DNA of 64,000 bases from Bolinopsis microptera (taxonomy: Eukaryota > Ctenophora > Tentaculata > Lobata > Bolinopsidae): contig NC_087073.1 in the NCBI RefSeq assembly GCF_026151205.1, positions 22,948,987 through 23,012,986 on the forward strand. Reading direction: 5' to 3'. A program made the translations under genes and the position numbers. The notes beneath the pieces are model-generated. The model saw only the letters and a program-made list of their open reading frames with translations. It made no database searches and was not told the DNA's origin. Positions within the stretch are counted from its first letter, which is position 1, and every line of letters starts with the position of its first letter. Positions 1,205 to 59,530 of this stretch are shown one piece after another.

Positions 1205-1247
<43 letters not shown>

Positions 1248-4826: not shown

Positions 4827-4878
4827 TAATGTGTTGCAGACAAGCAGACTACTGGAGTGGTTATTACACTTCACGACC
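4827..4878 (+). pseudogene. Truncated duplicate of mannosidase exon 1 with its acceptor
   Basis: These 52 bp are identical to 5227-5278: intron end TGTTGCAG plus the first 39 exon bases encoding [13 protein letters not shown]. The copy then runs into the 16-bp array and meets TAG immediately after the proline codon. The offset between copies is exactly 400 bp. Splicing into this decoy acceptor would truncate the protein. Confidence 0.85.
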
Positions 4879-5226
4879 ATAGTAACCAGTTACCATAGTA
4901 ACCAGTTACCATAGTAACCAGTTACCATAGTTACCAGTTACCGTAGTAACCAGTTACCGTAGTAACCAGTTACCGTAGTAACCAGTTACCGTAGTAACCA
5001 GTTACCGTAGTAACCAGTTACCGTAGTAACCAGTTACCGTAGTAACCAGTTACCGTAGTAACCAGTTACCGTAGTAACCAGTTACCGTAGTAACCAGTTA
5101 CCGTAGTAACCAGTTACCGTAGTAACCAGTTACCGTAGTAACCAGTTACCGTAGTAACCAGTTACCATAGTAACCAGTTACCATAGTAACCAGTTGCCAT
5201 AGTAACCAGTTACCATAGTAACCAGT
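4879..5226. repeat. 16-bp minisatellite GTTACCGTAGTAACCA
   Basis: About 22 tandem 16-bp units. Outer units read CCATAG and the central block reads CCGTAG. The same unit occurs about three more times at 5347-5396, on the other side of exon 1, so the exon sits inside the array. Confidence 0.9.
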
Positions 5227-5239
5227 TAATGTGTTGCAG

Positions 5240-5320
5240 ACAAGCAGACTACTGGAGTGGTTATTACACTTCACGACCCTTTTACAAAAACTTGGACCGT
5301 GTTTTGGAGTCAGCCCTGAG
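5240..5320 (+). CDS. MAN2A: Mannosidase exon 1 of the window
   Basis: The acceptor is TGTTGCAG at 5232-5239 and the donor is CTGAG|GTTAGT. One leading base completes a codon from an upstream exon. The exon then reads [16 protein letters not shown] and ends LESALR with two bases carried over. The acceptor and first 39 bases are duplicated 400 bp upstream. Confidence 0.9.
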
Positions 5321-8300
5321 GTTAGTTTTAAATATGTGACCTGTACCCCAGTTACCATAGTAACCAGTTACCATAGTAACCAGTTACCATAGCAACACTG
5401 ACTGTGTAACGAGTGTGTTGTTACTGAGTGTGTAATGATTGCGCCTATCAGTATTAACCAGTGATCCAATTTTCCTAAACCAACAACAAGACAATTGACT
5501 TAACATTCCGTGAGTGTGGCTATATAGTCTGCTATATAGTCCTCTGTATACTGGGTGTGTGTTACCATGGTGTTACCATGGTAATTGCGCTCTATACTTT
5601 CAACAAATTACTCGTTTTCAGGAGGACGGAGATACTGTTTTCCTTTTACCGCTCAGATCTGAGAAAAGGAGCGTTTGTGATGGCTAGAAACACGTTGTCT
5701 TTGTTCCAACACCACGATGGTATTACTGGCACTGCCAAGACGCACGTTGTCAATGACTACGGGGCAAGGCATGTAGTAAAGTATAATTAATTAAGTGCTG
5801 TAACCCCGCTGTAATTGCAACAACCTGACGTCATGCTCTACCCTACTTACTACCATGGAGTGCTGTAACCCCGCTGTAATTGCAACAACCTGATGCTCTA
5901 CCCTACTTACTACCATGATTCTGCCCAAGATGAGCAGTTATCTTGTATTTTGTATTTAGTGCGTAAATTGCGACTCGCGAGAGCGAAAATAGGTGTGGCC
6001 AGATAACTCATCAAACTCGATGTCTGATGACTTTTTTATGCTATATCCCACTAAATGTGATAATTCTGCACATTTTTATGGCCAAGTTGAGTTTCTTACT
6101 CCAATTAGAAGCGGAGTTATTTTGATTTTAAAGGGTGTGCGTGATCAATTGCACAAAACTGCACCATAGCCAAAATTTCAACCCAAGTCAAATTTGTTTC
6201 TGATGGGTCCCTTGAGCTATTCCAAGTCTCAAACCCCGGGTCGGAAGTTATATAGAATATCACCAACTATAGACGGGAATATTTTCAGATCCATATACAT
6301 CCAATATACATTTATTTATTCTGTACTAGCTGTACTTCTACAGATAAAGGAAGTAGTATTATACTACTGTTGAGCACTCTGCCATTATCAACACCAACTG
6401 TTGAGCACTCTGCCATTATCAACACCAACTGTTGAGCACTCTGCCATTATCAACACCAACTGTTGAGCACTCTGCCATTATCAACACCAACTGTTGAGCA
6501 CTCTGCCATTATCAACACCAACTATTGAGCACTCTGCCATTATCAACACCAACTGTTGAGCACTCTGCCATTATCAACACCAACTGTTGAGCACTCTGCC
6601 ATTATCAACACCAACTGTTGAGCACTCTGCCATTATCAACACCAACTGTTGAGCACTCTGCCATTATCAACACCAACTGTTGAGCACTCTGCCATTATCA
6701 ACACCAACTGTTGAGCACTCTGCCATTATCAACACCAACTGTTGAGCACTCTGCCATTATCAACACCAACTGTTGAGCACTCTGCCATTATCAACACCAA
6801 CTGTTGAGCACTCTGCCATTATCAACACCAACTGTTGAGCACTCTGCCATTATCAACACCAACTGTTGAGAACTCTGCCATTATCAACACCAACTGTTGA
6901 GCACTCTGCCATTATCAACACCAACTGTTGAGCACTCTGCCATTATCAACACAAACTGTTGAGCACTCTGCCATTATCAACACAAACTGTTGAGCACTCT
7001 GCCATTATCAACACCAACTGTTGAGAACTCTGCCATTATCAACACCAACTGTTGAGCACTCTGCCATTATCAACACCAACTGTTGAGCACTCTGCCATTA
7101 TCAACACCAACTGTTGAGCACTCTGCCATTATCAACACCAACTGTTGAGCACTCTGCCATTATCAACACCAACTGTTGAGCACTCTGCCATTATCAACAC
7201 CAACTGTTGAGCACTCTGCCATTATCAACACCAACTGTTGAGCACTCTGCCATTATCAACACCAACTGTTGAGCACTCTGCCATTATCAACACCAACTGT
7301 TGAGCACTCTGCCATTATCAACACCAACTGTTGAGCACTCTGCCATTATCAACACCAACTGTTGAGCACTCTGCCATTATCAACACCAACTGTTGAGCAC
7401 TCTGCCATTATCAACACCAACTGTTGAGCACTCTGCCATTATCAACACCAACTGTTGAGCACTCTGCCATTATCAACACCAACTGTTGAGCACTCTGCCA
7501 TTATCAACACCAACTGTTGAGCACTCTGCCATTATCAACACAAACTGTTGAGCACTCTGCCATTATCAACACCAACTGTTGAGCACTCTGCCATTATCAA
7601 CACCAACTGTTGAGCACTCTGCCATTATCAACACCAACTGTTGAGCACTCTGCCATTATCAACACAACTGTTGAGCACTCTGCCATTATCAACACCAACT
7701 GTTGAGCACTCTGCCATTATCAACACCAACTGTTGAGCACTCTGCCATTATCAACACCAACTGTTGAGCACTCTGCCATTATCAACACCAACTGTTGAGC
7801 ACTCTGCCATTATCAACACCAACTGTTGAGCACTCTGCCATTATCAACACCAACTGTTGAGCACTCTGCCATTATCAACACCAACTGTTGAGCACTCTGC
7901 CATTATCAACACCAACTGTTGAGCACTCTGCCATTATCAACACCAACTGTTGAGCACTCTGCCATTATCAACACCAACTGTTGAGCACTCTGCCATTATC
8001 AACACCAACTGTTGAGCACTCTGCCATTATCAACACCAACTGTTGAGCACTCTGCCATTATCAACACCAACTGTTGAGCACTCTGCCATTATCAACACCA
8101 ACTGTTGAGCACTCTGCCATTATCAACACCAACTGTTGAGCACTCTGCCATTATCAACACCAACTGTTGAGCACTCTGCCATTATCAACACCAACTGTTG
8201 AGCACTCTGCCATTATCAACACCAACTGTTGAGCACTCTGCCATTATCAACACCAACTGTTGAGAACTCTGCCATTATCAACACCAACTGTTGAGCACTC

Positions 8301-11300
8301 TGCCATTATCAACACCAACTGTTGAGCACTCTGCCATTATCAACACAACTGTTGAGCACTCTGCCATTATCAACACCAACTGTTGAGCACTCTGCCATTA
8401 TCAACACCAACTGTTGAGCACTCTGCCATTATCAACACCAACTGTTGAGCACTCTGCCATTATCAACACCAACTGTTGAGCACTCTGCCATTATCAACAC
8501 CAACTGTTGAGCACTCTGCCATTATCAACACCAACTGTTGAGCACTCTGCCATTATCAACACCAACTGTTGAGCACTCTGCCATTATCAACACCAACTAT
8601 TGAGCACTCTGCCATTATCAACACCAACTGTTGAGCACTCTGCCATTATCAACACCAACTGTTGAGCACTCTGCCATTATCAACACCAACTGTTGAGCAC
8701 TCTGCCATTATCAACACCAACTGTTGAGCACTCTGCCATTATCAACACCAACTGTTGAGAACTCTGCCATTATCAACACCAACTGTTGAGCACTCTGCCA
8801 TTATCAACACCAACTATTGAGCACTCTGCCATTATCAACACCAACTGTTGAGCACTCTGCCATTATCAACACCAACTGTTGAGCACTCTGCCATTATCAA
8901 CACCAACTGTTGAGCACTCTGCCATTATCAACACCAACTGTTGAGCACTCTGCCATTATCAACACCAACTGTTGAGAACTCTGCCATTATCAACACCAAC
9001 TGTTGAGCACTCTGCCATTATCAACACCAACTGTTGAGCACTCTGCCATTATCAACACAAACTGTTGAGCACTCTGCCATTATCAACACCAACTGTTGAG
9101 CACTCTGCCATTATCAACACCAACTGTTGAGCACTCTGCCATTATCAACACCAACTGTTGAGCACTCTGCCATTATCAACACCAACTGTTGAGCACTCTG
9201 CCATTATCAACACCAACTGTTGAGCACTCTGCCATTATCAACACCAACTGTTGAGCACTCTGCCATTATCAACACCAACTGTTGAGCACTCTGCCATTAT
9301 CAACACCAACTATTGAGCACTCTGCCATTATCAACACCAACTGTTGAGCACTCTGCCATTATCAACACCAACTGTTGAGCACTCTGCCATTATCAACACC
9401 AACTGTTGAGCACTCTGCCATTATCAACACCAACTGTTGAGCACTCTGCCATTATCAACACCAACTGTTGAGCAATCTGCCATTATCAACACCAACTGTT
9501 GAGCACTCTGCCATTATCAACACCAACTGTTGAGCACTCTGCCATTATCAACACCAACTGTGAAGACCAAGATTCTTTAAATCCAGCAATACACCACCCC
9601 AACACCCCGACCTACAATATTTCGAATCAGAATTGTATGATCTTATTGGCAGTTCTCAAAGTCTGAAACATTTCTCCATCCCTTTCGATCTGCAGTTAAT
9701 CTTCTCATACAATCAATCGTGAGTCCATTCCGATCCAATCTCTGCTCAGCATCCTCAATAAATACATCATTTAAGCTCTTCCTAGGCCTGCCTCTTGATC
9801 TCTTCCCATGCTTTGGTTTCCATTCAAGTAGATAGTTGGGTAACCGATCTTCAGGCATTCTACTGACATGTCCAAATCAACCACCAGTGGGGTACCATAT
9901 ACCATATACCCCACTGTATATATCTCTAAACAAGTCATCTCCCAACAGAGTAACTTATCGATCACTATTTCCGCACGGACCTAACTCTTGCACTACTTGG
10001 ATCAGAACTTCTGAGACATTACGTACAATTCTGAGAAGAAAACATCTGCTGAGTTGGACTTTCTGTACCAAACTGTACTGCAGAATGTTAAAATGGCTCA
10101 CTAAATGGAAGGCGCGATAATTTGAACATTGTGGTAAGTTAAGTTTGTATACAGCGACGGTGACAAGAATCATGCGCGCATCTTGTGTCGTGGTAAGAAA
10201 CCAGCATTGTAACTTTTATTTGAAGTGACCAACTATAACTGTTTCAGGTTAGTAACAACTACTGTTTCAGGTTGTACAACGCTTATAAGACCTGCACCGA
10301 CCTGACAATATTAGCTATACAGTATCTGCTGAAAGAAAGAACCACTTTTTCCCCGACTAGCAGTCGACTTGCTTTCAACACGGTTGAAAAGTACGACGTT
10401 TTGGGGGGGCCCAGTGAGTTGGTCCTTGCTAACACTCTATCCAGAGACGCACTCTCCTTAATAATTGTCGCCGTCAATAACTCCCAGCAACTTCAAGTAA
10501 GAAAAGGAATTAACATTCACCCAACAGTACCTAGTGTTATTTGTTTCCACTTTCCGCCTTTTTTGAATGCTATTTTATTAACAGAAATTAGACAATTTTT
10601 TTGTTTTTCCCGTCGAGCAATTTGTTAAGCAGCTGACCTCCCTCCTGCTGCAACCTCCCCCTGCTGTAACCCCTCCTGCTGCCACCCCTCCTGCTGTAAC
10701 CCCCTCCTGCTGCCACCCCTCCTGCTGCCACCCCTCCTGCTGTAACCCCTCCTGCTGTAACCCCCCTCCTGCTGTAACCCCTCCTGCTGCCACCCCTCCT
10801 GCTGTAACCCCCTCCTGCTGCCACCCCCTCCTGCTGTAACCCCCTCCTGCTGTAACCCCTCCTGCTGTCACCCCATCCTGCTGCCACCCCTCCTGCTGCC
10901 ACCCCTCCTGCTGCCACCTCTCCTGCTGTAACCCCCCTCCTGATGTAACCCCCTCCTGCTGTAACCCCCTCCTGCTGCCACCCCCTCCTGCTGTAACCCC
11001 CTCCTGCTGCCACCCCCCTCCTGCTGTAACCCCCTCCTGCTGTCACCCCCTCCTGCTGTAACCCCTCCTGCTGTCACCCCCTCCTGCTGTAACCCCTCCT
11101 GCTGCCACCCCTCCTGCTGTAACCCCTCCTGCTGCCACCCCTCCTGCTGTAACCCCCTGCTGATGTAACCCCCCTCCTGATGTAACCCCTCCTGCTGCCA
11201 CCCCTCCTGCTGTAACCCCCTCCTGCTGCCACCCCCTCCTGCTGCCACCCCTCCTGCTGTAACCCCCTCCTGCTGTAACCCCCTCCTGCTGTAACCCCTC

Positions 11301-14300
11301 CTGCTGCCACCCCTCCTGCTGTAACCCCCCTCCTGCTGTAACTCCCTCCTGCTGTAACTCCCTCCTGCTGCCACCCCTCCTGCTGTAACCCCCCTCCTGA
11401 TGTAACCCCCCTCCTGATGTAACCCCTCCTGCTGCCACCCCTCCTGCTGCCACCCCTCCTGCTGTAACCCCTCCTGCTGTAACCCCTCCTGCTGCCACCC
11501 CCTCCTGCTGCCACCCCTCCTGCTGTAACCCCTCCTGCTGTCACCCCCTCCTGCTGTAACCCCTCCTGCTGCCACCCCTCCTGCTGTAACCCCCCTCCTG
11601 CTGTAACCCCTCCTGCTGTAACCCCTCCTGCTGCCACCCCTCCTGCTGTAACCCCCCTCCTGATGTAACCCCCCTCCTGATATAACCCCTCCTGCTGCCA
11701 CCCCTCCTGATGTAACCCCCTCCTGCTGTAACCCTCTCCTGCTGCCACCCCTCCTGCTGCCACCCCTCCTGCTGTAACCCCCTGCTGATGTAACCCCCCT
11801 CCTGATGTAACCCCTCCTGATGTAACCCCTCCTGCTGCCACCCCTCCTGCTGTGACCCCCTCCTGCTGCCACCCCTCCTGCTGTAACCCCCTCCTGCTGT
11901 CACCCCTCCTGCTGTAACCCCCCTCCTGCTGTAACCCCCCTCCTGCTGTAAACCCTCCTGCTGCCACCCCTCCTGCTGTAACCCCCCTCCTGATGTAACC
12001 CCCTCCTGCTGCCACCCCTCCTGCTGTAACCCCCCTCCTGATGTAACCATCTCTCGCTGCCACCCCCTCCTGCTGTAACCCCCTCCTGCTGTAACCCCTC
12101 CTGCTGCCACCCCTCCTGCTGCCACCCCCTCCTGCTGTAACCCCCTCCTGCTGCCGCCCCTCCTGCTGCCACCCCCTCCTGCTGTAACCCCCTCCTGCTG
12201 TAACCCCCCTCCTGCTGTAACCCCTCCTGCTGCCACCCCTCCTGCTGTAACCCCCCTCCTGCTGCCACCCCCTCCTGCTGTAAACCCTCCTGCTGTAACC
12301 CCCTCCTGCTGTAACCCCTCCTGCTGCCACCCCTCCTGCTGTAACCCCTCCTGCTGTAACTCCCCTCCTGCTGCCACCCCTCCTGCTGTAACTCCCCTCC
12401 TGCTGCCACCCCTCCTGCTGTAACCCCTCCTGCTGTAACTCCCCTCCTGCTGCCACCCCTCCTGCTGCAACCTCCCCCTGCTGTAACCCCTCCTGCTGCC
12501 ACCCCTCCTGCTGTAACCCCCTCCTGCTGTAACCCCTCCTGATGTAACCCCTCCTGCTGTAACCCCCTCCTGCTGTAACCCCCCTCCTGCTGTAACCCCC
12601 TCCTGCTGCAACCCCTCCTGCTGTAACCCCCCTCCTGCTGTAACTCCCTCCTGCTGCCACCCCTCCTGCTGTAACTCCCTCCTGCTGCCACCCCTCCTGC
12701 TGTAACCCCCTCCTATTTATTCTGCACAGGTGACAGGTTTAGAGGGAGCAGTGTTACCACAACAGTCTGAGCCTCGTGTGGAATACGGAGAGGTACACTA
12801 CAATTCTAAATACCTGGTGTTCCTTGCTGACACGCCCTCTGTCTCTATACAAACGTACGTAACCATAGCAACACGCCCTCCGTCTCTATACAAACGTACG
12901 TAACCATAGCAACACGCCCTCCGTCTCTATACAAACGTACGTTACCATAGCAACACGCCCTCCGTCTCTATACAAACGTACGTTACCATAGCAACACGCC
13001 CTCTGTCTCTATACAAACGTACGTAACCATAGCAACACGCCCTCCGTCTCTATACAAACGTACGTAACCATAGCAACACGCCCTCCGTCTCTATACAAAC
13101 GTACGTTACCATAGCAACACGCCCTCCGTCTCTATACAAACGTACGTAACCATAGCAACACGCCCTCCGTCTCTATACAAACGTACGTTACCAGAGCAAC
13201 ACGCCCTCCGTCTCTATACAAACGTACGTGCTAACTAGACACGCCCTCCGTCTCTATACAAACGTACGTGCTAACTTCCCAATTATTCGAATACAATTGT
13301 TCCAAAACCCAAAACATTGAGTGGACCGTCGTTATAGTACTACTATTACGACGACTCAATTTTCCCCGATCCATGCCTCATGTGCCGACAAGGGTTAGCG
13401 AGCGTGCTAAATCACTCTACAGTCGATCTTCGAGATTGTTCTAATAGGGCCCCTGATGGTTGTAACCAACTTCAACCGATGTATTTTCGGATGCTGATTC
13501 CGAATCACCCCCCATGACATAGGGTTAAAATGCTCTCCTGACGAGATATTGGCGAAAAACTGTATCGATCACCCGGAGGCCTAAAACATTTTTTGAAGAT
13601 TGTGGTCACTAAACGTACGCATCCACAGAAATTCTAAGGAACAATATTCTTTTTTAAGACCATTTTGTGGGTAAAATTTTTGAATTTTTCATCTTACTAA
13701 GCCTTGATTGATATGACGATTTTAACCCTTCGAGATCCTTGCTCGAAGGGTTCGCATCGATCTGCGAAGATAAATGCAAAGCAAAAATGATAGTTCGCGC
13801 GGCGCGTCGAAGTCCTCCAAATCAAGCATCAAGATGGAAAAAATGAACCATGAAAGTCGAAGCACGGTCGCAACGGTAGCTTTTGACCTCTTTCTGCACT
13901 TTCTGCAGTTGGAATTTGGTGGATTTGTGATTAATATCAATATGGACACTGAAAACGTAAATTTTTCCTCACTGGGAAATTTTCGAGAGCAGGCAAAATG
14001 TTTTCTAAAGCAAGCATTGCCTTCTTTTGCCTTAGGCTGGCTACGTCACTGGTTATTTATTTACTAACAGATGATCCCTCAGTTACAAAATAGTGCCAGC
14101 GAGCTCCCCGATCACAAGGGCATCGCTAGACGTTTACAACTACGAGCTGGCACCTGAGTTTCACGACTCTTACCACAGCAGGATCCACTCTGAGGCTCAT
14201 TGCAAAGATATTGTTCTCGGGACGAACAAACTCAGCATTGTCTTGGACTGCAGGACGGGTGGGTCACATGTTGTGTATTACAAGTCACGTGTTGTTTATA

Positions 14301-15826
14301 TAAGTTAACTTTTAAGGTAATTAATAAGTACTAACCTGCTCATATATATAGGGCGGCTATTACAACACTTGAAGGAAGGAGTGGTAACGAGAATGGAGCA
14401 GGAGATACTGCTGTACAACAATACTGCTGGTGCTTACCTCTTCTTACCTAACGGCCCCCCTGCTCAACAGGGTGAGTACTTGTCGAGTAGCAGGGTGAGT
14501 ACTTGTTGAGTAGCAGGGTAAGTACTTGTTGAGTAGCAGGGTGAGTACTTGTTGAGCAGCAGGGTAAGTACTTGTTGAGTAGCAGGGTGAGTACTTGTTG
14601 AGCAGCAGGGTGAGTACTTGTTGAGCAGCAGGGTGAGTACTTGTTGAGTAGCAGGGTGAGTACTTGTTGAGCAGCAGGGTGAGTACTTGTTGAGTAGCAG
14701 GGTAAGTACTTGTTGAGTAGCAGGGTGAGTACTTGTTGAGCAGCAGGGTGAGTACTTGTTGAGTAGCAGGGTGAGTACTTGTTGAGCAGCAGGGTGAGTA
14801 CTTGTTGAGTAGCAGGGTGAGTACTTGTTGAGCAGCAGGGTGAGTACTTGTTGAGTAGCAGGGTGAGTACTTGTTGAGTAGCAGGGTGAGTACTTGTTGA
14901 GTAGCAGGGTGAATACTTGTTGAGTAGCAGGGTGAGTACTTGTTGAGTAGCAGGATGAGTACTTGTTGAGCAGCAGGGTGAGTACTTGTTGAGCAGCAGG
15001 GTGAGTACTTGTTGAGTAGCAGGGTGAGTACTTGTTGAGTAGCAGGGTGAGTACTTGTTGATTAGCAGGGTGAGTACTTGTTGAGTAGCAGGGTGAGTAC
15101 TTGTTGAGTAGCAGGGTGAGTACTTGTTGAGTAGCAGGGTGAGTACTTGTTGAGTAGCAGGGTGAGTACTTGTTGAGTAGCAGGGTGAGTACTTGTTGAG
15201 TAGCAGGGTGAGTACTTGTTGAGTAGCAGGGTGAATACTTGTTGAGCAGCAGGGTGAGTACTTGTTGAGTAGCAGGGTGAGTACTTGTCGAGTAGCAGGG
15301 TGAGTACTTGTTGAGAAGAAGGATGAGTACTTGTTGAGTAGCAGGGTGAGTACTTGTTGAGTAGCAGGGTGAGTACTTGTTGAGTAGCAGGGTGAGTACT
15401 TGTTGAGTAGCAGGGTGAGTACTTGTTGAGTAGCAGGTTGAGTACTTGTTGAGTAGCAGGGTGAGTACTTGTTGAGTAGCAGGTTGAGTACTTGTTGAGT
15501 AGCAGGGTGAGTACTTGTTGAGTAGCAGGGTGAGTACTTGTCGAGTAGCAGGGTGAGTACTTGTTGAGTAGCAGGGTGAGTACTTGTTGAGTAGCAGGTT
15601 GAGTACTTGTTGAGTAGCAGTGTGAGTACTTGTTGAGTAGCAGGGTGAGTACTTATTGAGTAGCAGGGTGAGTACTTGTTGAGTAGCAGTACTTATATCC
15701 TGTTTGTTGCAGTTGTAGAGACGTCTCGACCTCGAATTGTGGTAATGAAGGGACCTGTAAGACACAAGGCAGTTGTGAAGTATGACAGAAACATCGTCAT
15801 CAGCTACATCGTGAACCTATTGGGAG
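5240..15826 (+). CDS. MAN2A: Alpha-mannosidase II-like (GH38), partial: seven internal exons
   Basis: Seven exons join in phase into about 329 codons: 5240-5320, 5622-5768, 10271-10496, 12730-12854, 14083-14258, 14352-14471 and 15713-15826. In animals this family trims two mannoses from GlcNAcMan5GlcNAc2 in the Golgi lumen during complex N-glycan synthesis. Diagnostic strings are [27 protein letters not shown] followed by VVNDYG (the HHD histidine is a zinc ligand in the family), and [10 protein letters not shown]. VVxDYG and FLPNG favour the Golgi MAN2A branch over lysosomal enzymes. The segment covers the end of the catalytic domain, the middle domain and the start of the C-terminal domain. 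The membrane anchor and first catalytic residues would lie before the window. No exon for the C-terminal third was found after 15826, so the gene is either split by a very long repeat-filled intron or truncated. Confidence 0.9.
5321..5621 (+). other. Mannosidase intron 1
   Basis: GT-AG intron of 301 bp. It contains about three units of the 16-bp repeat at 5347-5396 and a small duplication of GTTACCATGGT near 5561-5582. It ends CTCGTTTTCAG. Confidence 0.8.
5622..5768 (+). CDS. MAN2A: Mannosidase exon 2, HHD zinc-ligand exon
   Basis: Reads [15 protein letters not shown], then [17 protein letters not shown] and VVNDYGA, the strongest family signature in the window. The only donor that keeps frame with exon 3 is AG|GCATGT at 5769, a GC-AG intron. 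The nearby GT at 5773 would put a stop in exon 3. An alternative is a T-to-C sequence error in a normal AG|GTATGT donor. Confidence 0.92.
5794..5918. repeat. Direct duplication, 65/60 bp
   Basis: Two adjacent copies starting AGTGCTGTAACCCCGCTG (5794 and 5859). The second lacks 5 bp (CGTCA). Confidence 0.9.
5919..6366. other. Intron 2, unique part
   Basis: AT-rich sequence between the duplication and the 31-bp array. No exon, repeat or RNA gene was recognised. Confidence 0.5.
6367..9561. repeat. 31-bp minisatellite, ~103 units, in intron 2
   Basis: The unit begins CTGTTGAGCACTCTGCCATT and ends ATCAACACCAA (31 bp). Units are nearly identical. Recurrent point variants are GAGAACT for GAGCACT, CTATTGAG for CTGTTGAG and ACAAACTG for ACCAACTG, and two units are one base short (near 7665 and 8345). 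The shared rare variants scattered along the array indicate homogenisation by unequal exchange. The 31-bp frame carries no family-like protein. Confidence 0.97.
9643..9876 (-). pseudogene. Non-LTR retrotransposon fragment: C-terminal tail of a reverse transcriptase
   Basis: The minus-strand frame reads [17 protein letters not shown], then [12 protein letters not shown] and [11 protein letters not shown] before a stop. This order (GH..RM, GKR.RGRP, ..DR..WR) is the usual end of LINE-type ORF2 proteins. Only the last 80 or so residues remain and no RT domain precedes them, so it is a 5'-truncated insertion in mannosidase intron 2, antisense to the gene. Confidence 0.75.
9877..10223. other. Intron 2, distal unique part
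   Basis: It contains a short tandem ACCATATACC near 9893-9912. No exon was recognised. Confidence 0.4.
10224..10270 (+). promoter_or_regulatory. Tandemly duplicated 3' splice site of exon 3
   Basis: ACTGTTTCAGGTT occurs twice with the AGs 23 bp apart (CAG ending at 10247 and 10270). Only the second acceptor keeps frame. Use of the first shifts frame by 23 nt. Confidence 0.7.
10271..10496 (+). CDS. MAN2A: Mannosidase exon 3
   Basis: The first base completes AGG (Arg) with the two bases carried from exon 2. The exon then reads [20 protein letters not shown] and on through [17 protein letters not shown] to NNSQQLQ. The donor is TTCAA|GTAAGA and the exon ends in phase 0. It corresponds to the linker between the catalytic and C-terminal parts and lacks the very short motifs that would fix the subfamily. 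Confidence 0.85.
10497..10624. other. Start of intron 3
   Basis: Unique sequence up to the 15-bp array. Nothing else was seen. Confidence 0.5.
10625..12715. repeat. 15/16-bp pyrimidine-rich minisatellite in intron 3
   Basis: About 135 units of CCTCCTGCTGTAACCC or CCTCCTGCTGCCACCC with C-run length varying by one or two. The + (transcribed) strand is almost pure C/T with CTGTAAC inside. The other strand is runs of 3-5 G. The array stops 14 bases before the exon 4 acceptor CAG, so it effectively extends the polypyrimidine tract to 2 kb. Long glycine/arginine/glutamine frames on the minus strand are repeat shadows. Confidence 0.95.
12730..12854 (+). CDS. MAN2A: Mannosidase exon 4
   Basis: The acceptor is TTCTGCACAG. 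The exon reads [20 protein letters not shown], then [15 protein letters not shown] and SVSIQT. The donor CAAAC|GTACGT leaves two bases and joins exon 5 as [14 protein letters not shown], which fits the family. The alternative GTAACC four bases later breaks frame. The last 25 exon bases and the donor are the first unit of an 11-copy 41-bp array. Confidence 0.87.
12830..13274 (+). repeat. 41-bp array containing the exon 4 end and its 5' splice site, ~11 units
   Basis: Unit starts are at about 12830 and every 41 bp thereafter. Each unit holds ACACGCCCTCYGTCTCTATA (exon-derived), CAAACGTACGT (the donor) and a short intronic ACCATAGCA tail. The last two units end GTGCTAAC instead. Since 41 is not a multiple of three, only the first donor preserves the frame into exon 5. 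Confidence 0.93.
13275..14082. other. Remainder of intron 4
   Basis: Mostly unique sequence. It contains a perfect 11-bp inverted repeat at 13724-13752 (AACCCTTCGAG / CTCGAAGGGTT, 7-base loop). Overlapping open frames of 75-97 codons on both strands resemble nothing known to me and probably are not genes. Confidence 0.5.
14062..14068 (+). promoter_or_regulatory. TACTAAC branch-point-like site, intron 4
   Basis: A perfect TACTAAC lies 15 nt before the exon 5 acceptor (CCTCAG ending at 14082). Confidence 0.65.
14083..14258 (+). CDS. MAN2A: Mannosidase exon 5
   Basis: Starts after CCTCAG. The T completes ACT (Thr) with exon 4, then the exon reads [20 protein letters not shown], later [20 protein letters not shown] and CRT. 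The donor is GACGG|GTGGGT in phase 1. An upstream AG (ACTAACAG at 14070) would put TGA in frame, which fixes the acceptor choice. Confidence 0.87.
14329..14335 (+). promoter_or_regulatory. TACTAAC branch-point-like site, intron 5
   Basis: Perfect TACTAAC in the 93-bp intron 5, followed by CTGCTCATATATATAG and exon 6. Confidence 0.65.
14352..14471 (+). CDS. MAN2A: Mannosidase exon 6, [10 protein letters not shown] exon
   Basis: Reads [15 protein letters not shown] across the junction, then [19 protein letters not shown] and PAQQ. The donor AGG|GTGAGT is the first of about 53 tandem copies. Phase 1 at the end. Confidence 0.9.
14468..15690 (+). repeat. 23-bp array of consensus 5' splice sites, ~53 units
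   Basis: The unit CAGGGTGAGTACTTGTTGAG plus TAG (23 bp) starts on the last four bases of exon 6 and runs almost to the exon 7 acceptor. Most units keep GTGAGT. Several carry GTAAGT (for example near 14519, 14565 and 14703), which is equally good. Few lose GT (near 14952 and 15323). Every unit contains TGA/TAG, so only the first donor makes a continuous protein. The 433-codon frame on the minus strand is a shadow. Confidence 0.95.
15713..15826 (+). CDS. MAN2A: Mannosidase exon 7, last one found
   Basis: The acceptor is TTTGTTGCAG. The exon reads [19 protein letters not shown], then [18 protein letters not shown], with donor GGGAG|GTATGT. It continues the C-terminal beta-sandwich region, and more exons are expected downstream but none was found. 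Confidence 0.83.
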
Positions 15827-16289: not shown

Positions 16290-16377
16290 CTCAAAAAGGG
16301 TGCAAAGAGGGGGGGGGGCATATTAAAGTATATTCCCGCCCTCAAATCGGGAAAAACCTACATTTTAATATACTTGA

Positions 16378-48200: not shown

Positions 48201-51200
48201 TTACCTGCAGAGTATTATCTGTTAGTCCTGTTAGCGTGCTGGCTCTACAGTTATCTAGAAACAGCTCCTTTACCTGCAGAGTATTATCTGTTAGTCCTGT
48301 TAGCGTGCTGGCTCTACAGTTATCTAGAAACAGCTCCTTTACCTGCAGAGTATTATCTGTTAGTCCTGTTAGCGTGCTGGCTCTACAGTTGTCTAGAAAC
48401 AGCTCCTTTACCTGCAGAGTATTATCTGTTAGTCCTGTTAGCGTGCTGGCTCTACAGTTATCTAGAAACAACTCCTTTACCTGCAGAGTATTATCTGTTA
48501 GTCCTGTTAGCGTGCTGGCTCTACAGTTGTCTAGAAACAGCTCCTTTACCTGCAGAGTATTATCTGTTAGTCCTGTTAGCGTGCTGGCTCTACAGTTATC
48601 TAGAAACAGCTCCTTTACCTGCAGAGTATTATCTGTTAGTCCTGTTAGCGTGCTGGCTCTACAGTTATCTAGAAACAGCTCCTTTACCTGCAGAGTATTA
48701 TCTGTTAGTCCTGTTAGCGTGCTGGCTCTACAGTTATCTAGAAACAGCTCCTTTACCTGCAGAGTATTATCTGTTAGTCCTGTTAGCGTGCTGGCTCTAC
48801 AGTTGTCTAGAAACAGCTCCTTTACCTGCAGAGTATTATCTGTTAGTCCTGTTAGCGTGCTGGCTCTACAGTTGTCTAGAAACAGCTCTTTTACCTGCAG
48901 AGTATTATCTGTTAGTCCTGTTAGCGTGCTGGCTCTACATTTATCTAGAAACAGCTCCTTTACCTGCAGAGTATTATCTGTTAGTCCTGTTAGCGTGCTG
49001 GCTCTACATTTATCTAGAAACAGCTCCTTTACCTGCAGAGTATTATCTGTTAGTCCTGTTAGCGTGCTGGCTCTACAGTTGTCTAGAAACAGCTCCTTTA
49101 CCTGCAGAGTATTATCTGTTAGTCCTGTTAGCGTGCTGGCTCTACAGTTGTCTAGAAACAGCTCCTTTACCTGCAGAGTATTATCTGTTAGTCCTGTTAG
49201 CGTGCTGGCTCTACAGTTGTCTAGAAACAGCTCCTTTACCTGCAGAGTATTATCTGTTAGTCCTGTTAGCGTGCTGGCTCTACAGTTGTCTAGAAACAAC
49301 TCCTTTACCTGCAGAGTATTATCTGTTAGTCCTGTTAGCGTGCTGGCTCTACAGTTGTCTAGAAACAGCTCCTTTACCTGCAGAGTATTATCTGTTAGTC
49401 CTGTTAGCGTGCTGGCTCTACAGTTATCTAGAAACAGCTCCTTTACCTGCAGAGTATTATCTGTTAGTCCTGTTAGCGTGCTGGCTCTACAGTTATCTAG
49501 AAACAGCTCCTTTACCTGCAGAGTATTATCTGTTAGTCCTGTTAGCGTGCTGGCTCTACAGTTATCTAGAAACAGCTCCTTTACCTGCAGAGTATTATCT
49601 GTTAGTCCTGTTAGCGTGCTGGCTCTACAGTTATCTAGAAACAGCTCCTTTACCTGCAGAGTATTATCTGTTAGTCCTGTTAGCGTGCTGGCTCTACAGT
49701 TATCTAGAAACAGCTCCTTTACCTGCAGAGTATTATCTGTTAGTCCTGTTAGCGTGCTGGCTCTACAGTTATCTAGAAACAGCTCCTTTACCTGCAGAGT
49801 ATTATCTGTTAGTCCTGTTAGCGTGCTGGCTCTACATTTATCTAGAAACAGCTCCTTTACCTGCAGAGTATTATCTGTTAGTCCTGTTAGCGTGCTGGCT
49901 CTACATTTATCTAGAAACAGCTCCTTTACCTGCAGAGTATTATCTGTTAGTCCTGTTAGCGTGCTGGCTCTACAGTTATCTAGAAACAGCTCCTTTACCT
50001 GCAGAGTATTATCTGTTAGTCCTGTTAGCGTGCTGGCTCTACAGTTATCTAGAAACAGCTCCTTTACCTGCAGAGTATTATCTGTTAGTCCTGTTAGCGT
50101 GCTGGCTCTACAGTTATCTAGAAACAGCTCCTTTACCTGCAGAGTATTATCTGTTAGTCCTGTTAGCGTGCTGGCTCTACATTTATCTAGAAACAGCTCC
50201 TTTACCTGCAGAGTATTATCTGTTAGTCCTGTTAGCGTGCTGGCTCTACAGTTGTCTAGAAACAGCTCCTTTACCTGCAGAGTATTATCTGTTAGTCCTG
50301 TTAGCGTGCTGGCTCTACAGTTATCTAGAAACAGCTCCTTTACCTGCAGAGTATTATCTGTTAGTCCTGTTAGCGTGCTGGCTCTACAGTTGTCTAGAAA
50401 CAGCTCCTTTACCTGCAGAGTATTATCTGTTAGTCCTGTTAGCGTGCTGGCTCTACAGTTATCTAGAAACAGCTCCTTTACCTGCAGAGTATTATCTGTT
50501 AGTCCTGTTAGCGTGCTGGCTCTACAGTTATCTAGAAACAGCTCCTTTACCTGCAGAGTATTATCTGTTAGTCCTGTTAGCGTGCTGGCTCTACATTTAT
50601 CTAGAAACAGCTCCTTTACCTGCAGAGTATTATCTGTTAGTCCTGTTAGCGTGCTGGCTCTACATTTATCTAGAAACAGCTCCTTTACCTGCAGAGTATT
50701 ATCTGTTAGTCCTGTTAGCGTGCTGGCTCTACATTTATCTAGAAACAGCTCCTTTACCTGCAGAGTATTATCTGTTAGTCCTGTTAGCGTGCTGGCTCTA
50801 CATTTATCTAGAAACAGCTCCTTTACCTGCAGAGTATTATCTGTTAGTCCTGTTAGCGTGCTGGCTCTACAGTTATCTAGAAACAGCTCCTTTACCTGCA
50901 GAGTATTATCTGTTAGTCCTGTTAGCGTGCTGGCTCTACATTTATCTAGAAACAGCTCCTTTACCTGCAGAGTATTATCTGTTAGTCCTGTTAGCGTGCT
51001 GGCTCTACATTTATCTAGAAACAGCTCCTTTACCTGCAGAGTATTATCTGTTAGTCCTGTTAGCGTGCTGGCTCTACAGTTATCTAGAAACAGCTCCTTT
51101 ACCTGCAGAGTATTATCTGTTAGTCCTGTTAGCGTGCTGGCTCTACATTTATCTAGAAACAGCTCCTTTACCTGCAGAGTATTATCTGTTAGTCCTGTTA

Positions 51201-54200
51201 GCGTGCTGGCTCTACAGTTGTCTAGAAACAGCTCCTTTACCTGCAGAGTATTATCTGTTAGTCCTGTTAGCGTGCTGGCTCTACAGTTATCTAGAAACAG
51301 CTCCTTTACCTGCAGAGTATTATCTGTTAGTCCTGTTAGCGTGCTGGCTCTACAGTTGTCTAGAAACAGCTCCTTTACCTGCAGAGTATTATCTGTTAGT
51401 CCTGTTAGCGTGCTGGCTCTACAGTTATCTAGAAACAGCTCCTTTACCTGCAGAGTATTATCTGTTAGTCCTGTTAGCGTGCTGGCTCTACAGTTGTCTA
51501 GAAACAGCTCCTTTACCTGCAGAGTATTATCTGTTAGTCCTGTTAGCGTGCTGGCTCTACATTTATCTAGAAACAGCTCCTTTACCTGCAGAGTATTATC
51601 TGTTAGTCCTGTTAGCGTGCTGGCTCTACATTTATCTAGAAACAGCTCCTTTACCTGCAGAGTATTATCTGTTAGTCCTGTTAGCGTGCTGGCTCTACAT
51701 TTATCTAGAAACAGCTCCTTTACCTGCAGAGTATTATCTGTTAGTCCTGTTAGCGTGCTGGCTCTACATTTATCTAGAAACAGCTCCTTTACCTGCAGAG
51801 TATTATCTGTTAGTCCTGTTAGCGTGCTGGCTCTACAGTTGTCTAGAAACAGCTCCTTTACCTGCAGAGTATTATCTGTTAGTCCTGTTAGCGTGCTGGC
51901 TCTACAGTTGTCTAGAAACAACTCCTTTACCTGCAGAGTATTATCTGTTAGTCCTGTTAGCGTGCTGGCTCTACAGTTATCTAGAAACAGCTCCTTTACC
52001 TGCAGAGTATTATCTGTTAGTCCTGTTAGCGTGCTGGCTCTACATTTATCTAGAAACAGCTCCTTTACCTGCAGAGTATTATCTGTTAGTCCTGTTAGCG
52101 TGCTGGCTCTGCAGTTATCTAGAAACAGCTCCTTTACCTGCAGAGTATTATCTGTTAGTCCTGTTAGCGTGCTGGCTCTACATTTATCTAGAAACAGCTC
52201 CTTTACCTGCAGAGTATTATCTGTTAGTCCTGTTAGCGTGCTGGCTCTACAGTTGTCTAGAAACAGCTCCTTTACCTGCAGAGTATTATCTGTTAGTCCT
52301 GTTAGCGTGCTGGCTCTACAGTTATCTAGAAACAACTCCTTTACCTGCAGAGTATTATCTGTTAGTCCTGTTAGCGTGCTGGCTCTACAGTTGTCTAGAA
52401 ACAGCTCCTTTATCTGCAGAGTATTATCTGTTAGTCCTGTTAGCGTGCTGGCTCTACAGTTGTCTAGAAACAGCTCCTTTACCTGCAGAGTATTATCTGT
52501 TAGTCCTGTTAGCGTGCTGGCTCTACAGTTATCTAGAAACAGCTCCTTTACCTGCAGAGTATTATCTGTTAGTCCTGTTAGCGTGCTGGCTCTACAGTTA
52601 TCTAGAAACAGCTCCTTTACCTGCAGAGTATTATCTGTTAGTCCTGTTAGCGTGCTGGCTCTACAGTTATCTAGAAACAACTCCTTTACCTGCAGAGTAT
52701 TATCTGTTAGTCCTGTTAGCGTGCTGGCTCTACAGTTATCTAGAAACAGCTCCTTTACCTGCAGAGTATTATCTGTTAGTCCTGTTAGCGTGCTGGCTCT
52801 ACAGTTATCTAGAAACAGCTCCTTTACCTGCAGAGTATTATCTGTTAGTCCTGTTAGCGTGCTGGCTCTACAGTTGTCTAGAAACAGCTCCTTTACCTGC
52901 AGAGTATTATCTGTTAGTCCTGTTAGCGTGCTGGCTCTACAGTTATCTAGAAACAGCTCCTTTACCTGCAGAGTATTATCTGTTAGTCCTGTTAGCGTGC
53001 TGGCTCTACAGTTATCTAGAAACAACTCCTTTACCTGCAGAGTATTATCTGTTAGTCCTGTTAGCGTGCTGGCTCTACAGTTGTCTAGAAACAGCTCCTT
53101 TACCTGCAGAGTATTATCTGTTAGTCCTGTTAGCGTGCTGGCTCTACATGTATCTAGAAACAGCTCCTTTACCTGCAGAGTATTATCTGTTAGTCCTGTT
53201 AGCGTGCTGGCTCTACAGTTGTCTAGAAACAGCTCCTTTACCTGCAGAGTATTATCTGTTAGTCCTGTTAGCGTGCTGGCTCTACAGTTGTCTAGAAACA
53301 GCTCCTTTACCTGCAGAGTATTATCTGTTAGTCCTGTTAGCGTGCTGGCTCTACAGTTATCTAGAAACAACTCCTTTACCTGCAGAGTATTATCTGTTAG
53401 TCCTGTTAGCGTGCTGGCTCTACAGTTGTCTAGAAACAGCTCCTTTACCTGCAGAGTATTATCTGTTAGTCCTGTTAGCGTGCTGGCTCTACAGTTGTCT
53501 AGAAACAGCTCCTTTACCTGCAGAGTATTATCTGTTAGTCCTGTTAGCGTGCTGGCTCTACAGTTATCTAGAAACAACTCCTTTACCTGCAGAGTATTAT
53601 CTGTTAGTCCTGTTAGCGTGCTGGCTCTACATTTATCTAGAAACAGCTCCTTTACCTGCAGAGTATTATCTGTTAGTCCTGTTAGCGTGCTGGCTCTACA
53701 GTTATCTAGAAACAACTCCTTTACCTGCAGAGTATTATCTGTTAGTCCTGTTAGCGTGCTGGCTCTACAGTTATCTAGAAACAGCTCCTTTACCTGCAGA
53801 GTATTATCTGTTAGTCCTGTTAGCGTGCTGGCTCTACATTTATCTAGAAACAGCTCCTTTACCTGCAGAGTATTATCTGTTAGTCCTGTTAGCGTGCTGG
53901 CTCTACAGTTATCTAGAAACAGCTCCTTTACCTGCAGAGTATTATCTGTTAGTCCTGTTAGCGTGCTGGCTCTACAGTTATCTAGAAACAGCTCCTTTAC
54001 CTGCAGAGTATTATCTGTTAGTCCTGTTAGCGTGCTGGCTCTACAGTTATCTAGAAACAGCTCCTTTACCTGCAGAGTATTATCTGTTAGTCCTGTTAGC
54101 GTGCTGGCTCTACATTTATCTAGAAACAGCTCCTTTACCTGCAGAGTATTATCTGTTAGTCCTGTTAGCGTGCTGGCTCTACAGTTATCTAGAAACAGCT

Positions 54201-56760
54201 CCTTTACCTGCAGAGTATTATCTGTTAGTCCTGTTAGCGTGCTGGCTCTACAGTTATCTAGAAACAGCTCCTTTACCTGCAGAGTATTATCTGTTAGTCC
54301 TGTTAGCGTGCTGGCTCTACAGTTGTCTAGAAACAGCTCCTTTACCTGCAGAGTATTATCTGTTAGTCCTGTTAGCGTGCTGGCTCTACAGTTGTCTAGA
54401 AACAACTCCTTTACCTGCAGAGTATTATCTGTTAGTCCTGTTAGCGTGCTGGCTCTACAGTTATCTAGAAACAGCTCCTTTACCTGCAGAGTATTATCTG
54501 TTAGTCCTGTTAGCGTGCTGGCTCTACAGTTATCTAGAAACAGCTCCTTTACCTGCAGAGTATTATCTGTTAGTCCTGTTAGCGTGCTGGCTCTACAGTT
54601 ATCTAGAAACAGCTCCTTTACCTGCAGAGTATTATCTGTTAGTCCTGTTAGCGTGCTGGCTCTACAGTTATCTAGAAACAACTCCTTTACCTGCAGAGTA
54701 TTATCTGTTAGTCCTGTTAGCGTGCTGGCTCTACAGTTATCTAGAAACAACTCCTTTACCTGCAGAGTATTATCTGTTAGTCCTGTTAGCGTGCTGGCTC
54801 TACATTTATCTAGAAACAGCTCCTTTACCTGCAGAGTATTATCTGTTAGTCCTGTTAGCGTGCTGGCTCTACATTTATCTAGAAACAGCTCCTTTACCTG
54901 CAGAGTATTATCTGTTAGTCCTGTTAGCGTGCTGGCTCTACATTTATCTAGAAACAGCTCCTTTACCTGCAGAGTATTATCTGTTAGTCCTGTTAGCGTG
55001 CTGGCTCTACAGTTGTCTAGAAACAGCTCCTTTACCTGCAGAGTATTATCTGTTAGTCCTGTTAGCGTGCTGGCTCTACAGTTATCTAGAAACAGCTCCT
55101 TTACCTGCAGAGTATTATCTGTTAGTCCTGTTAGCGTGCTGGCTCTACAGTTATCTAGAAACAGCTCCTTTACCTGCAGAGTATTATCTGTTAGTCCTGT
55201 TAGCGTGCTGGCTCTACAGTTGTTTAGAAACAACTCCTTTACCTGCAGAGTATTATATGTTAGTCCTGTTAGCGTGCTGGCTCTACAGTTATCTAGAAAC
55301 AGCTCCTTTACCTGCAGAGTATTATCTGTTAGTCCTGTTAGCGTGCTGGCTCTACAGTTGTCTAGAAACAGCTCCTTTACCTGCAGAGTATTATCTGTTA
55401 GTCCTGTTAGCGTGCTGGCTCTACAGTTATCTAGAAACAGCTCCTTTACCTGCAGAGTATTATCTGTTAGTCCTGTTAGCGTGCTGGCTCTACAGTTATC
55501 TAGAAACAGCTCCTTTACCTGCAGAGTATTATCTGTTAGTCCTGTTAGCGTGCTGGCTCTACAGTTATCTAGAAACAGCTCCTTTACCTGCAGAGTATTA
55601 TCTGTTAGTCCTGTTAGCGTGCTGGCTCTACAGTTATCTAGAAACAGCTCCTTTACCTGCAGAGTATTATCTGTTAGTCCTGTTAGCGTGCTGGCTCTAC
55701 AGTTATCTAGAAACAGCTCCTTTACCTGCAGAGTATTATCTGTTAGTCCTGTTAGCGTGCTGGCTCTACAGTTATCTAGAAACAGCTCCTTTACCTGCAG
55801 AGTATTATCTGTTAGTCCTGTTAGCGTGCTGGCTCTACAGTTGTCTAGAAACAGCTCCTTTACCTGCAGAGTATTATCTGTTAGTCCTGTTAGCGTGCTG
55901 GCTCTACAGTTATCTAGAAACAGCTCCTTTACCTGCAGAGTATTATCTGTTAGTCCTGTTAGCGTGCTGGCTCTACAGTTATCTAGAAACAGCTCCTTTA
56001 CCTGCAGAGTATTATCTGTTAGTCCTGTTAGCGTGCTGGCTCTACAGTTGTCTAGAAACAGCTCCTTTACCTGCAGAGTATTATCTGTTAGTCCTGTTAG
56101 CGTGCTGGCTCTACAGTTATCTAGAAACAGCTCCTTTACCTGCAGAGTATTTATCTGTTAGTCCTGTTAGCGTGCTGGCTCTACATTTATCTAGAAACAG
56201 CTCCTTTACCTGCAGAGTATTATCTGTTAGTCCTGTTAGCGTGCTGGCTCTACAGTTATCTAGAAACAACTCCTTTACCTGCAGAGTATTATCTGTTAGT
56301 CCTGTTAGCGTGCTGGCTCTACAGTTATCTAGAAACAGCTCCTTTACCTGCAGAGTATTATCTGTTAGTCCTGTTAGCGTGCTGGCTCTACAGTTGTCTA
56401 GAAACAGCTCCTTTACCTGCAGAGTATTATCTGTTAGTCCTGTTAGCGTGCTGGCTCTACAGTTATCTAGAAACAGCTCCTTTACCTGCAGAGTATTATC
56501 TGTTAGTCCTGTTAGCGTGCTGGCTCTACAGTTATCTAGAAACAGCTCCTTTACCTGCAGAGTATTATCTGTTAGTCCTGTTAGCGTGCTGGCTCTACAG
56601 TTATCTAGAAACAGCTCCTTTACCTGCAGAGTATTATCTGTTAGTCCTGTTAGCGTGCTGGCTCTACAGTTATCTAGAAACAACTCCTTTACCTGCAGAG
56701 TATTATCTGTTAGTCCTGTTAGCGTGCTGGCTCTACAGTTATCTAGAAACAGCTCCTTTA
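39160..56760 (-). repeat. 69-bp array of ANP32 exon 2 acceptor + 5' half, left block, ~255 units
   Basis: On the minus strand the unit is TACTCTGCAG (intron end) plus exon bases GTAAAGGAG through GACTAACAGATAA. Most differences are GAT/GAC and CTG/TTG (silent in the LRR frame) or AAC/AAA (Asn/Lys); Thr appears at 42524 and 53151. Seven units are 70 bp with GATAAATAC (+ strand GTATTTATC near 40272, 41449, 41520, 41932, 42289, 42350 and 56151). A C-to-T change near 47516 makes TAG. These breaks mean the whole block cannot encode a single LRR protein. Open frames of 4,596 and 4,757 codons on the + strand are shadows of a stop-free unit. Confidence 0.95.
56753..56760. repeat. Target-site duplication, left copy
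   Basis: CTCCTTTA, repeated at 57368-57375 on the other side of the inserted element. Confidence 0.85.
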
Positions 56761-57367
56761 CCCAGGTCAATATCATTACATATTTCGCATATTAATATAC
56801 GACATATTTCGAAGGAAAACCACGACATAACAAAATTATTGTTAAAATTTGTTACAAATTAATTTAATTTCAGAAATAGTTGATTGCAGAATTCCTTTGA
56901 AAAAAATTTTTTTCGAAAAATTTTCTTGAAAAAATTTTGCGAATATTTTGATATTTTCATGACATCCGAAATCATGACATCCGAAATCTTGACATCATGT
57001 CATGATTTACAAATATCTGAGAAAGTTCACGCATATTTTTACCTGTATTTTACAGGCAAAACTTGACATGAAAAACGTCCCCGCATATTTGATAAGATGA
57101 GCGCATATTTGACATGGATCTAAATATCTGACGGGGGATATCATATAAAAAATATCCTTGTGTTTGAAAAATTATATCAAAAAAGTTAAGAATTTTTTAA
57201 TAAATTTTTCTAGGACTCGCCTGTAGCAGGCTTTGTCCCCCTGGATCGGGCTCTGCCAATTTGGATCATTGTGGGGCCCAAAAATGCCCCATCGGGTGAT
57301 AAAAACCATGACATATTTCACCCAGATATAATAATATACGACATATTTTTAATGATATTGACCTGGG
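56761..57367. mobile_element. 607-bp non-autonomous DNA transposon (MITE-like), 8-bp TSD
   Basis: It begins CCCAGGTCAATATCATTA and ends with the exact reverse complement (18-bp terminal inverted repeats). Removing the element plus one CTCCTTTA restores an intact 69-bp unit. No transposase frame is present. The interior is AT-rich with repeated CATATTT and GACATCCGAAATC strings. An 8-bp duplication is typical of hAT, P and Merlin-type elements. The TSD does not fully fit the hAT preference, so the superfamily is left open. Confidence 0.88.
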
Positions 57368-59310
57368 CTCCTTTACCTGCAGAGTATTATCTGTTAGTCC
57401 TGTTAGCGTGCTGGCTCTACAGTTATCTAGAAACAGCTCCTTTACCTGCAGAGTATTATCTGTTAGTCCTGTTAGCGTGCTGGCTCTACAGTTGTCTAGA
57501 AACAACTCCTTTACCTGCAGAGTATTATCTGTTAGTCCTGTTAGCGTGCTGGCTCTACAGTTGTCTAGAAACAGCTCCTTTACCTGCAGAGTATTATCTG
57601 TTAGTCCTGTTAGCGTGCTGGCTCTACAGTTATCTAGAAACAGCTCCTTTACCTGCAGAGTATTATCTGTTAGTCCTGTTAGCGTGCTGGCTCTACAGTT
57701 ATCTAGAAACAGCTCCTTTACCTGCAGAGTATTATCTGTTAGTCCTGTTAGCGTGCTGGCTCTACAGTTATCTAGAAACAGCTCCTTTACCTGCAGAGTA
57801 TTATCTGTTAGTCCTGTTAGCGTGCTGGCTCTACAGTTATCTAGAAACAGCTCCTTTACCTGCAGAGTATTATCTGTTAGTCCTGTTAGCGTGCTGGCTC
57901 TACAGTTATCTAGAAACAGCTCCTTTACCTGCAGAGTATTATCTGTTAGTCCTGTTAGCGTGCTGGCTCTACAGTTATCTAGAAACAGCTCCTTTACCTG
58001 CAGAGTATTATCTGTTAGTCCTGTTAGCGTGCTGGCTCTACATTTATCTAGAAACAGCTCCTTTACCTGCAGAGTATTATCTGTTAGTCCTGTTAGCGTG
58101 CTGGCTCTACATTTATCTAGAAACAACTCCTTTACCTGCAGAGTATTATCTGTTAGTCCTGTTAGCGTGCTGGCTCTACAGTTATCTAGAAACAACTCCT
58201 TTACCTGCAGAGTATTATCTGTTAGTCCTGTTAGCGTGCTGGCTCTACAGTTATCTAGAAACAGCTCCTTTACCTGCAGAGTATTATCTGTTAGTCCTGT
58301 TAGCGTGCTGGCTCTACATTTATCTAGAAACAGCTCCTTTACCTGCAGAGTATTATCTGTTAGTCCTGTTAGCGTGCTGGCTCTACAGTTATCTAGAAAC
58401 AGCTCCTTTACCTGCAGAGTATTATCTGTTAGTCCTGTTAGCGTGCTGGCTCTACAGTTATCTAGAAACAACTCCTTTACCTGCAGAGTATTATCTGTTA
58501 GTCCTGTTAGCGTGCTGGCTCTACAGTTATCTAGAAACAGCTCCTTTACCTGCAGAGTATTATCTGTTAGTCCTGTTAGCGTGCTGGCTCTACAGTTATC
58601 TAGAAACAGCTCCTTTACCTGCAGAGTATTATCTGTTAGTCCTGTTAGCGTGCTGGCTCTACAGTTATCTAGAAACAGCTCCTTTACCTGCAGAGTATTA
58701 TCCTGTTAGCGTGCTGGCTCTACAGTTATCTAGAAACAGCTCCTTTACCTGCAGAGTGTTATCTGTTAGTCCTGTTAGCGTGCTGGCTCTACAGTTATCT
58801 AGAAACAACTCCTTTACCTGCAGAGTATTATCTGTTAGTCCTGTTAGCGTGCTGGCTCTACAGTTGTCTAGAAACAGCTCCTTTACCTGCAGAGTATTAT
58901 CTGTTAGTCCTGTTAGCGTGCTGGCTCTACAGTTATCTAGAAACAGCTCCTTTACCTGCAGAGTATTATCTGTTAGTCCTGTTAGCGTGCTGGCTCTACA
59001 GTTATCTAGAAACAGCTCCTTTACCTGCAGAGTATTATCTGTTAGTCCTGTTAGCGTGCTGGCTCTACAGTTATCTAGAAACAGCTCCTTTACCTGCAGA
59101 GTATTATCTGTTAGTCCTGTTAGCGTGCTGGCTCTACAGTTGTCTAGAAACAGCTCCTTTACCTGCAGAGTGTTATCTGTTAGTCCTGTTAGCGTGCTGG
59201 CTCTACAGTTATCTAGAAACAACTCCTTTACCTGCAGAGTATTATCTGTTAGTCCTGTTAGCGTGCTGGCTCTACAGTTATCTAGAAACAGCTCCTTTAC
59301 CTGCAGAGTA
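57368..59310 (-). repeat. 69-bp array, right block, ~28 units, with native upstream edge
   Basis: Same unit as the left block. One unit near 58700 is 8 bp short. The right edge joins what looks like the original intron: the minus strand reads CAGTATAACATACTCTGCAG, then GTAAAGG. This edge therefore preserves the ancestral 3' splice site. Confidence 0.93.
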
Positions 59311-59530
59311 TGTTATACTGCATGTTCATGTGGAAACAAATCACTACATCTTCTTAATTTATAAATGTAATAAACTAATTTAAACTAATTACAACACTAC
59401 AAATCTATTACATTTATTGAGGACGTTACAGAAGGTGTTAATTTAATGTAGTTGGAGGAGTCCTAACTCTCCTCACGTCCGAAAATGGCGTTTCTCTTGT
59501 ATCAAATATGTAGCATTCTATGATACCCAC
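59311..59530. other. Unique sequence right of the array
   Basis: Presumed 3' part of ANP32 intron 1 on the minus strand. No exon was recognised. Confidence 0.4.

Follow-up and report, generated by a model that had tools for sequence, protein, structure and literature searches.

Tandem repeats lying over exon-intron borders are already known from amphioxus as 'mirages' (PMC3087553, PMC3902484). They occur in the globins BflGb6 and BflGb9, troponin C, PGBD5 and Adh3 (the last from Canestro et al. 2002, as cited in PMC3087553 and PMC3902484) with units of 10-160 bp; BflGb6 haplotypes carry 6 and 3 copies, and regular splicing was observed by RT-PCR (PMC3087553, PMC3902484). In the intron gain by tandem duplication described for potato RdRp, a border-crossing duplication turns exon into intron (PMC4974935). 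Human segmental-duplication genes have internal tandem repeats at exon-intron boundaries, and minisatellite copy number varies between the paralogues, transcripts are altered and new introns are made (PMC2812944).

The window analysed here is a stretch of 64 kb (C2:22948987-23012986) from the assembly of the ctenophore Bolinopsis microptera. The assembly has 264.65 Mb in 232 contigs, and 13 contigs of 15-26 Mb contain 258.07 Mb (97.5 %). In the published description, 97.23 % of bases are placed in 13 chromosome-scale scaffolds, haplotigs were removed and gaps were closed with TGS-GapCloser, which, going by the title of the tool, uses error-prone long reads (PMC10232365). Arrays were confirmed by TRF and direct reading of the sequence, and an array was considered junction-spanning when it had at least 4 bases on each side of the border. 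A sequence-only reading of the window had reported five tandemly copied junctions in two genes, and all five are present (Table 1), two of them weak (the exon-3 acceptor and the exon-6 donor). As that reading also said, units of different arrays are unrelated in the TRF unit list, and one mobile family behind all arrays was rejected for this reason.

Table 1 Features of the window (positions counted from its first base; a slash marks a splice border)
Feature	Position	Strand	Basis or remark
Alpha-mannosidase II-like (GH38) exon 1	5240..5320	+	Match to Drosophila Golgi alpha-mannosidase II, E 7e-28; Pfam Alpha-mann_mid
Mannosidase exon 2	5622..5768	+	GC donor CAAG/gcatgt, one copy in window
Mannosidase exon 3	10271..10496	+	
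Mannosidase exon 4	12730..12854	+	
Mannosidase exon 5	14083..14258	+	Spliced frame open
Mannosidase exon 6	14352..14471	+	Spliced frame open
Mannosidase exon 7	15713..15826	+	Spliced frame open
Exon-1 acceptor, upstream copy	4828..4878	+	51 bp (12 intron and 39 exon bases), identical to 5228-5278
Exon-1 acceptor, downstream copy, probably used	5228..5278	+	Runs on into rest of exon
Minisatellite between the two exon-1 acceptor copies, 16 bp x 22	4876..5228	+	TRF
Exon-3 acceptor array, 23 bp x 2.0, copies diverged	10238..10280	+	TRF score only 68
Intronic array, 15-bp unit, not junction-spanning	10640..12714	+	Ends 15 bp 5' of exon 4; TRF, reading
Exon-4 donor array, 41 bp x 10.8	12830..13269	+	25 exon bases per unit, CAAAC/gtacgt; TRF
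Exon-6 donor array, 23 bp x 53.1	14468..15689	+	CAGG/gtgagtacttgttgagtag; TRF
ANP32 exon 1	60172..60234	-	Spliced product matches ANP32A, E 5e-45
ANP32 exon 2	39085..39228	-	First 59 bases are last unit of array
ANP32 exon-2 acceptor array, ~285 units of 69 bp	39170..59311	-	TACTCTGCAG/GTAAAGGAG...; TRF, unit statistics
hAT-like non-autonomous insert in ANP32 array	56757..57368	-	17-bp terminal inverted repeats CCCAGGTCAATATCATT; 8-bp target duplication TAAAGGAG

When the seven mannosidase exons at 5240-15826 are spliced, they give an open stretch of 329 residues that resembles the Drosophila enzyme and contains the Alpha-mann_mid domain. The exon numbering is that of the earlier reading and needs correction, as its exon 1 is an internal exon and an earlier one lies at C2:22938226. 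At the exon-1 acceptor, the perfect 51-bp copies are exactly 400 bp apart. The 16-bp unit found there, ACCATAGTAACCAGTT, has about 25 copies in the intron (window 4876-5396) and contains a near-palindrome resembling the RFX X-box. Exon 2 has an apparent GC donor at 5761-5774 (GGGGCAAG/gcatgt), of which a second copy of the gene has about five repeats. The exon-3 acceptor array proves little alone because of its low TRF score, as arrays scoring at least 50 occur in the genome at about 0.7 per kb. The exon-6 array, with only 4 exon bases (CAGG) in the unit, is close to a purely intronic array starting at the donor. Other units hold more exon sequence (39 bases at the exon-1 acceptor, 25 at the exon-4 donor, 58-59 in ANP32, and about 27 each at an upstream mannosidase exon and a myosin donor).

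The sequence-only reading knew of no described class of repeat defined in this way; the amphioxus mirages are such a class. As in amphioxus, the unit spans the border with both exon and intron bases and carries a complete splice site, here GTACGT, GTGAGT, GCATGT or TGCAG/GTAAAG. Both kinds of junction are affected: donors at mannosidase exons 2, 4 and 6 and in myosin, and acceptors at mannosidase exons 1 and 3, the upstream exon and ANP32. The genes and the units are likewise unrelated, and the outermost copy keeps the frame. The arrays differ from the amphioxus ones in the ctenophore host, in copy number (up to ~285 copies over 20 kb), in the presence of several in one gene, and in that splicing is predicted here from DNA. 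New here are the host and the 20-kb ANP32 array, whose in-frame unit joins an acceptor to a donor. In the literature searched we found no report of ctenophore mirages, which does not imply that none exists elsewhere. Compared with the potato case, the ANP32 unit also contains AG/GT, but the arrays only lengthen existing introns and no extra exon or intron was seen; all of them lie at existing intron borders of predicted genes. Unlike in the human genes, the expected mRNA is unchanged.

The arrays are probably neutral minisatellites of the mirage kind, surviving because the outermost copy restores the mRNA. We infer their origin by duplication, the use of the outermost copy and their neutrality. 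In a minisatellite-rich genome, a short tandem duplication would happen to cross an exon-intron border and the copied block would include a complete splice site. The copy adjoining the remainder of the exon (the first for a donor, the last for an acceptor) would keep the old mRNA, the remaining copies would turn into intron, and copy number could drift without coding cost through slippage or unequal exchange. Judged by sequence, the breakpoints share short matches. The exon-2 donor join has CAA in common, the exon-6 array has a length of 53 x 23 + 3 bases (CAG), and the initial ANP32 duplication probably linked ATAC of the exon with ATAC of the intron, as the 70-bp units still have exon GATAAATAC before TCTGCAG. 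This fits slippage or microhomology-mediated duplication followed by expansion.

Splicing at the outermost copies gives intact predicted alpha-mannosidase II-like and ANP32 proteins. In a spliced-frame test, the other copies at the exon-1 and exon-3 acceptors and at the exon-4 and exon-6 donors led to early stops, and none of the mannosidase units (41, 23, 53, 23 and 52 bp) is a multiple of 3. The earlier proposal that such arrays are tolerated because the same mRNA can still be made agrees with the complete splice sites in the arrays, with a copy number that varies while the coding frame stays open, and with the loss of frame from any mannosidase copy but the outermost in every array tested. 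ANP32 differs in that other copies keep the frame too. The idea is essentially that of the authors who described the amphioxus mirages, namely that regular splicing is undisturbed.

The ANP32 gene has exons 1 and 2 and two further exons on the minus strand, which together encode a predicted protein of 150 residues. The product matches ANP32A over its whole length; the alignment requires exactly one array copy, with exon 1 joined to the last one. Human ANP32 genes have an intron at the same position as well, so the ANP32 intron is probably not new. Units of exactly 69 bp number 273, and there are seven of 70 bp and one of 61 bp, each with 58-59 exon bases. The unit joins its acceptor straight to a donor-like GTAAAG (CAG/GTAAAG, within CTGCAG/GTAAAG) and the 69-bp form translates without a stop as VKELFLDNCRASTLTGLTDNTLQ. 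When each of the 15 acceptors nearest to exon 2 is used, the product is in-frame and stop-free with 23 more residues per unit. The internal acceptors share the upstream context of the last acceptor, and the central puzzle is how the spliceosome would come to choose the last copy, supposing that it does. The seven 70-bp units retain exon GATAAATAC before TCTGCAG, and on sequence comparison the common 69-bp unit seems to have arisen from the 70-bp unit by loss of 1 bp, which by chance restored the frame. The open minus-strand frames at 42316-47514 and 47515-56157 (1732 and 2880 residues) were considered as a giant coding LRR array, and this was rejected because of the frame-breaking 70-bp and 61-bp units, the stop variant and the lack of a synonymous excess.

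Second copies of both genes were found on the same contig. The second mannosidase copy is inverted and lies at C2:22764000-22793700 and beyond. Each mannosidase copy has its own 5' exon, at C2:22938226 and C2:22809284, and exons 1 and 2 of the second copy are identical to those of the window at 79/81 and 146/147 positions (225/228 together). It has five exon-1 acceptors against two in the window, about five copies of a 53-bp unit at the exon-2 donor against one, and 110 against 103 units of a 31-bp intronic array. Arrays at the exon-4 and exon-6 donors are also present, the latter homologous to that of the window. From intron 2 onward, identity falls abruptly from ~98-99 % to 83 %, and a comparison over 1.16 kb counts 72 deletions and 25 insertions. 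Judged by its sequence, this 83 %-identity part looks like unpolished reads, so the arrays within it show the same structures a second time in a partly independent way. An old paralogue is less likely, as the abrupt switch and the predominance of deletions are those of unpolished sequence. The second ANP32 copy (C2:22438000-22445880) is 99.4 % identical in 1.1 kb beside the array and has at least 10.8 units; we did not accept it as a short allele of 10.8 units because the contig ends within the array at a 100-N gap. Assembled gene copies differ in junction-array copy number, whether they are haplotypes or paralogues; from the sequence, the second copies may be either haplotigs that escaped purging or a genuine inverted duplication close to the end of the contig. 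The region C2:22.44-23.03 Mb has both genes duplicated on one contig within 0.6 Mb, one of them inverted, and an N gap.

Junctions were also counted outside the window, in a genome sample of ~296 kb. In this sample, 79 junctions were called in myosin, CCT and other GH38 genes at loci picked by Pfam or protein match, the CCT genes being short slices of their loci; simple splice-site scores were used, and of the 156 exon ends in the sample, half were not callable with them and were omitted. Two of the 79 junctions are spanned, against 1.0-1.1 expected under uniform seeding at 0.7-1 arrays per kb. Both are donors and belong to the same myosin gene (C2:3.17 Mb), one with at least 4.2 copies of a 40-bp unit (CACTACATCGTCCACTATTACGCTCAG/GTAGGAGAGCCTT) and the other with two copies of a 26-bp unit. 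A general enrichment of junction-anchored arrays, as the sequence-only reading had expected, is not supported so far by this small 79-junction sample, and the frequency of spanning arrays elsewhere in the genome is roughly what arrays with no preference for or against junctions would give. In the mannosidase gene, 4 of 14 junctions have spanning arrays against 0.76-0.91 expected (P 0.003-0.007), and counting the second copy as well gives five against 1.0-1.2 (P 0.0015-0.003); these P values are post hoc and optimistic because the gene was singled out for the pattern seen there. Junction arrays have a hot spot in this gene, for which the sole out-of-sample support is the upstream exon at C2:22938050-22938560, fetched by homology only and bearing four copies of a 52-bp unit at its acceptor. 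Arrays occupy 50 % of the window and 7-8 % of the genome sample.

The mannosidase excess and this homology-fetched exon speak against a purely neutral reading, and would be explained if tandem duplications were actively seeded at splice junctions or drawn to them, for example through co-transcriptional R-loops or splice-site motifs, so that arrays are truly anchored there. The two donor arrays within one myosin gene point the same way. We nevertheless regard such seeding as unlikely, because the sampled junctions give a count near expectation, most sampled intronic arrays near exons lie fully in the intron or end before the exon, and the window was chosen for showing the pattern. Something local would lie behind the excess, such as a hot gene, a position near the chromosome end or selection against arrays placed elsewhere. 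The equal upstream context of the ANP32 acceptors also argues against neutrality. A different alternative is that the array is used. Its ~285 in-frame units, each with an acceptor abutting a strong donor, could serve as optional 69-nt micro-exons of 23 residues bounded by CTGCAG/GTAAAG, included in variable number to give a length-variable ANP32 with extra LRR-like 23-mers, or as ratcheting points for removal by serial recursive splicing. The 69-bp unit would then have replaced the ancestral 70-bp unit because it kept the frame. The stop-free unit and the in-frame products of the 15 nearest acceptors are in line with such use, and recursive splice sites likewise juxtapose acceptor and donor. 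However, the ANP32 unit is at the start of a genuine exon, where the codons are conserved, GTAAAGGAG merely corresponding to the conserved VKE codons of ANP32, and a ratchet role is putative. The array is not frame-kept overall, with its 70-bp and 61-bp units, one stop variant and a transposon inside, and 69 is divisible by 3 with a chance of one in three. The synonymous count (7 of 15 against 5 expected, a share of 0.33; P 0.2) gave no indication that the array is under coding selection, and neither frame nor amino-acid constraint is held across the units as in a coding tandem repeat. Use of the array in either form, including replacement of the 70-bp unit for the sake of the frame, is therefore quite improbable in our opinion.

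An assembly artefact, with false tandem copies or misjoined reads, is more improbable still. Parts of the data do look like unpolished long reads (window 1-4560 and the second copy over exons 4-7), the second ANP32 contig stops inside the array at an N gap, and the gene duplicates lie within 0.6 Mb of one contig. On the other side, the same arrays are seen in both assembled copies, the raw-looking stretch included, sequence variants occur in an ordered way among the units, and the ANP32 array has a transposon within it. The assembled copy numbers, above all ~285, may still be wrong. Homopolymer and indel noise like that of unpolished reads was seen at window 1-4560 and in two other fetched segments (in one over its positions 1-2600); the window start is a noisy version of 29-bp and 22-bp arrays that are clean in another fetched segment.

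With a ctenophore as host, mirages are not an amphioxus oddity and would appear in any animal genome dense in minisatellites, on either side of the animal tree. They offer a natural test of spliceosome choice among tens to hundreds of identical sites, the ANP32 array being an extreme case with its ~285 equal acceptors, and are a plausible source of new introns and exons. The main interest lies in the ANP32 splicing problem and in the fact that several mirages cluster within one gene.

Two minor observations were made on other repeats. In the myosin and CCT genes, short intronic arrays end at acceptors and have units with branch-point-like CTAAT or CTAAC. About 1 kb downstream of ANP32 exon 2 in the sense of the gene, 195-bp tandem units form two neighbouring blocks in opposite orientation (35530-37239 and 37342-38082).
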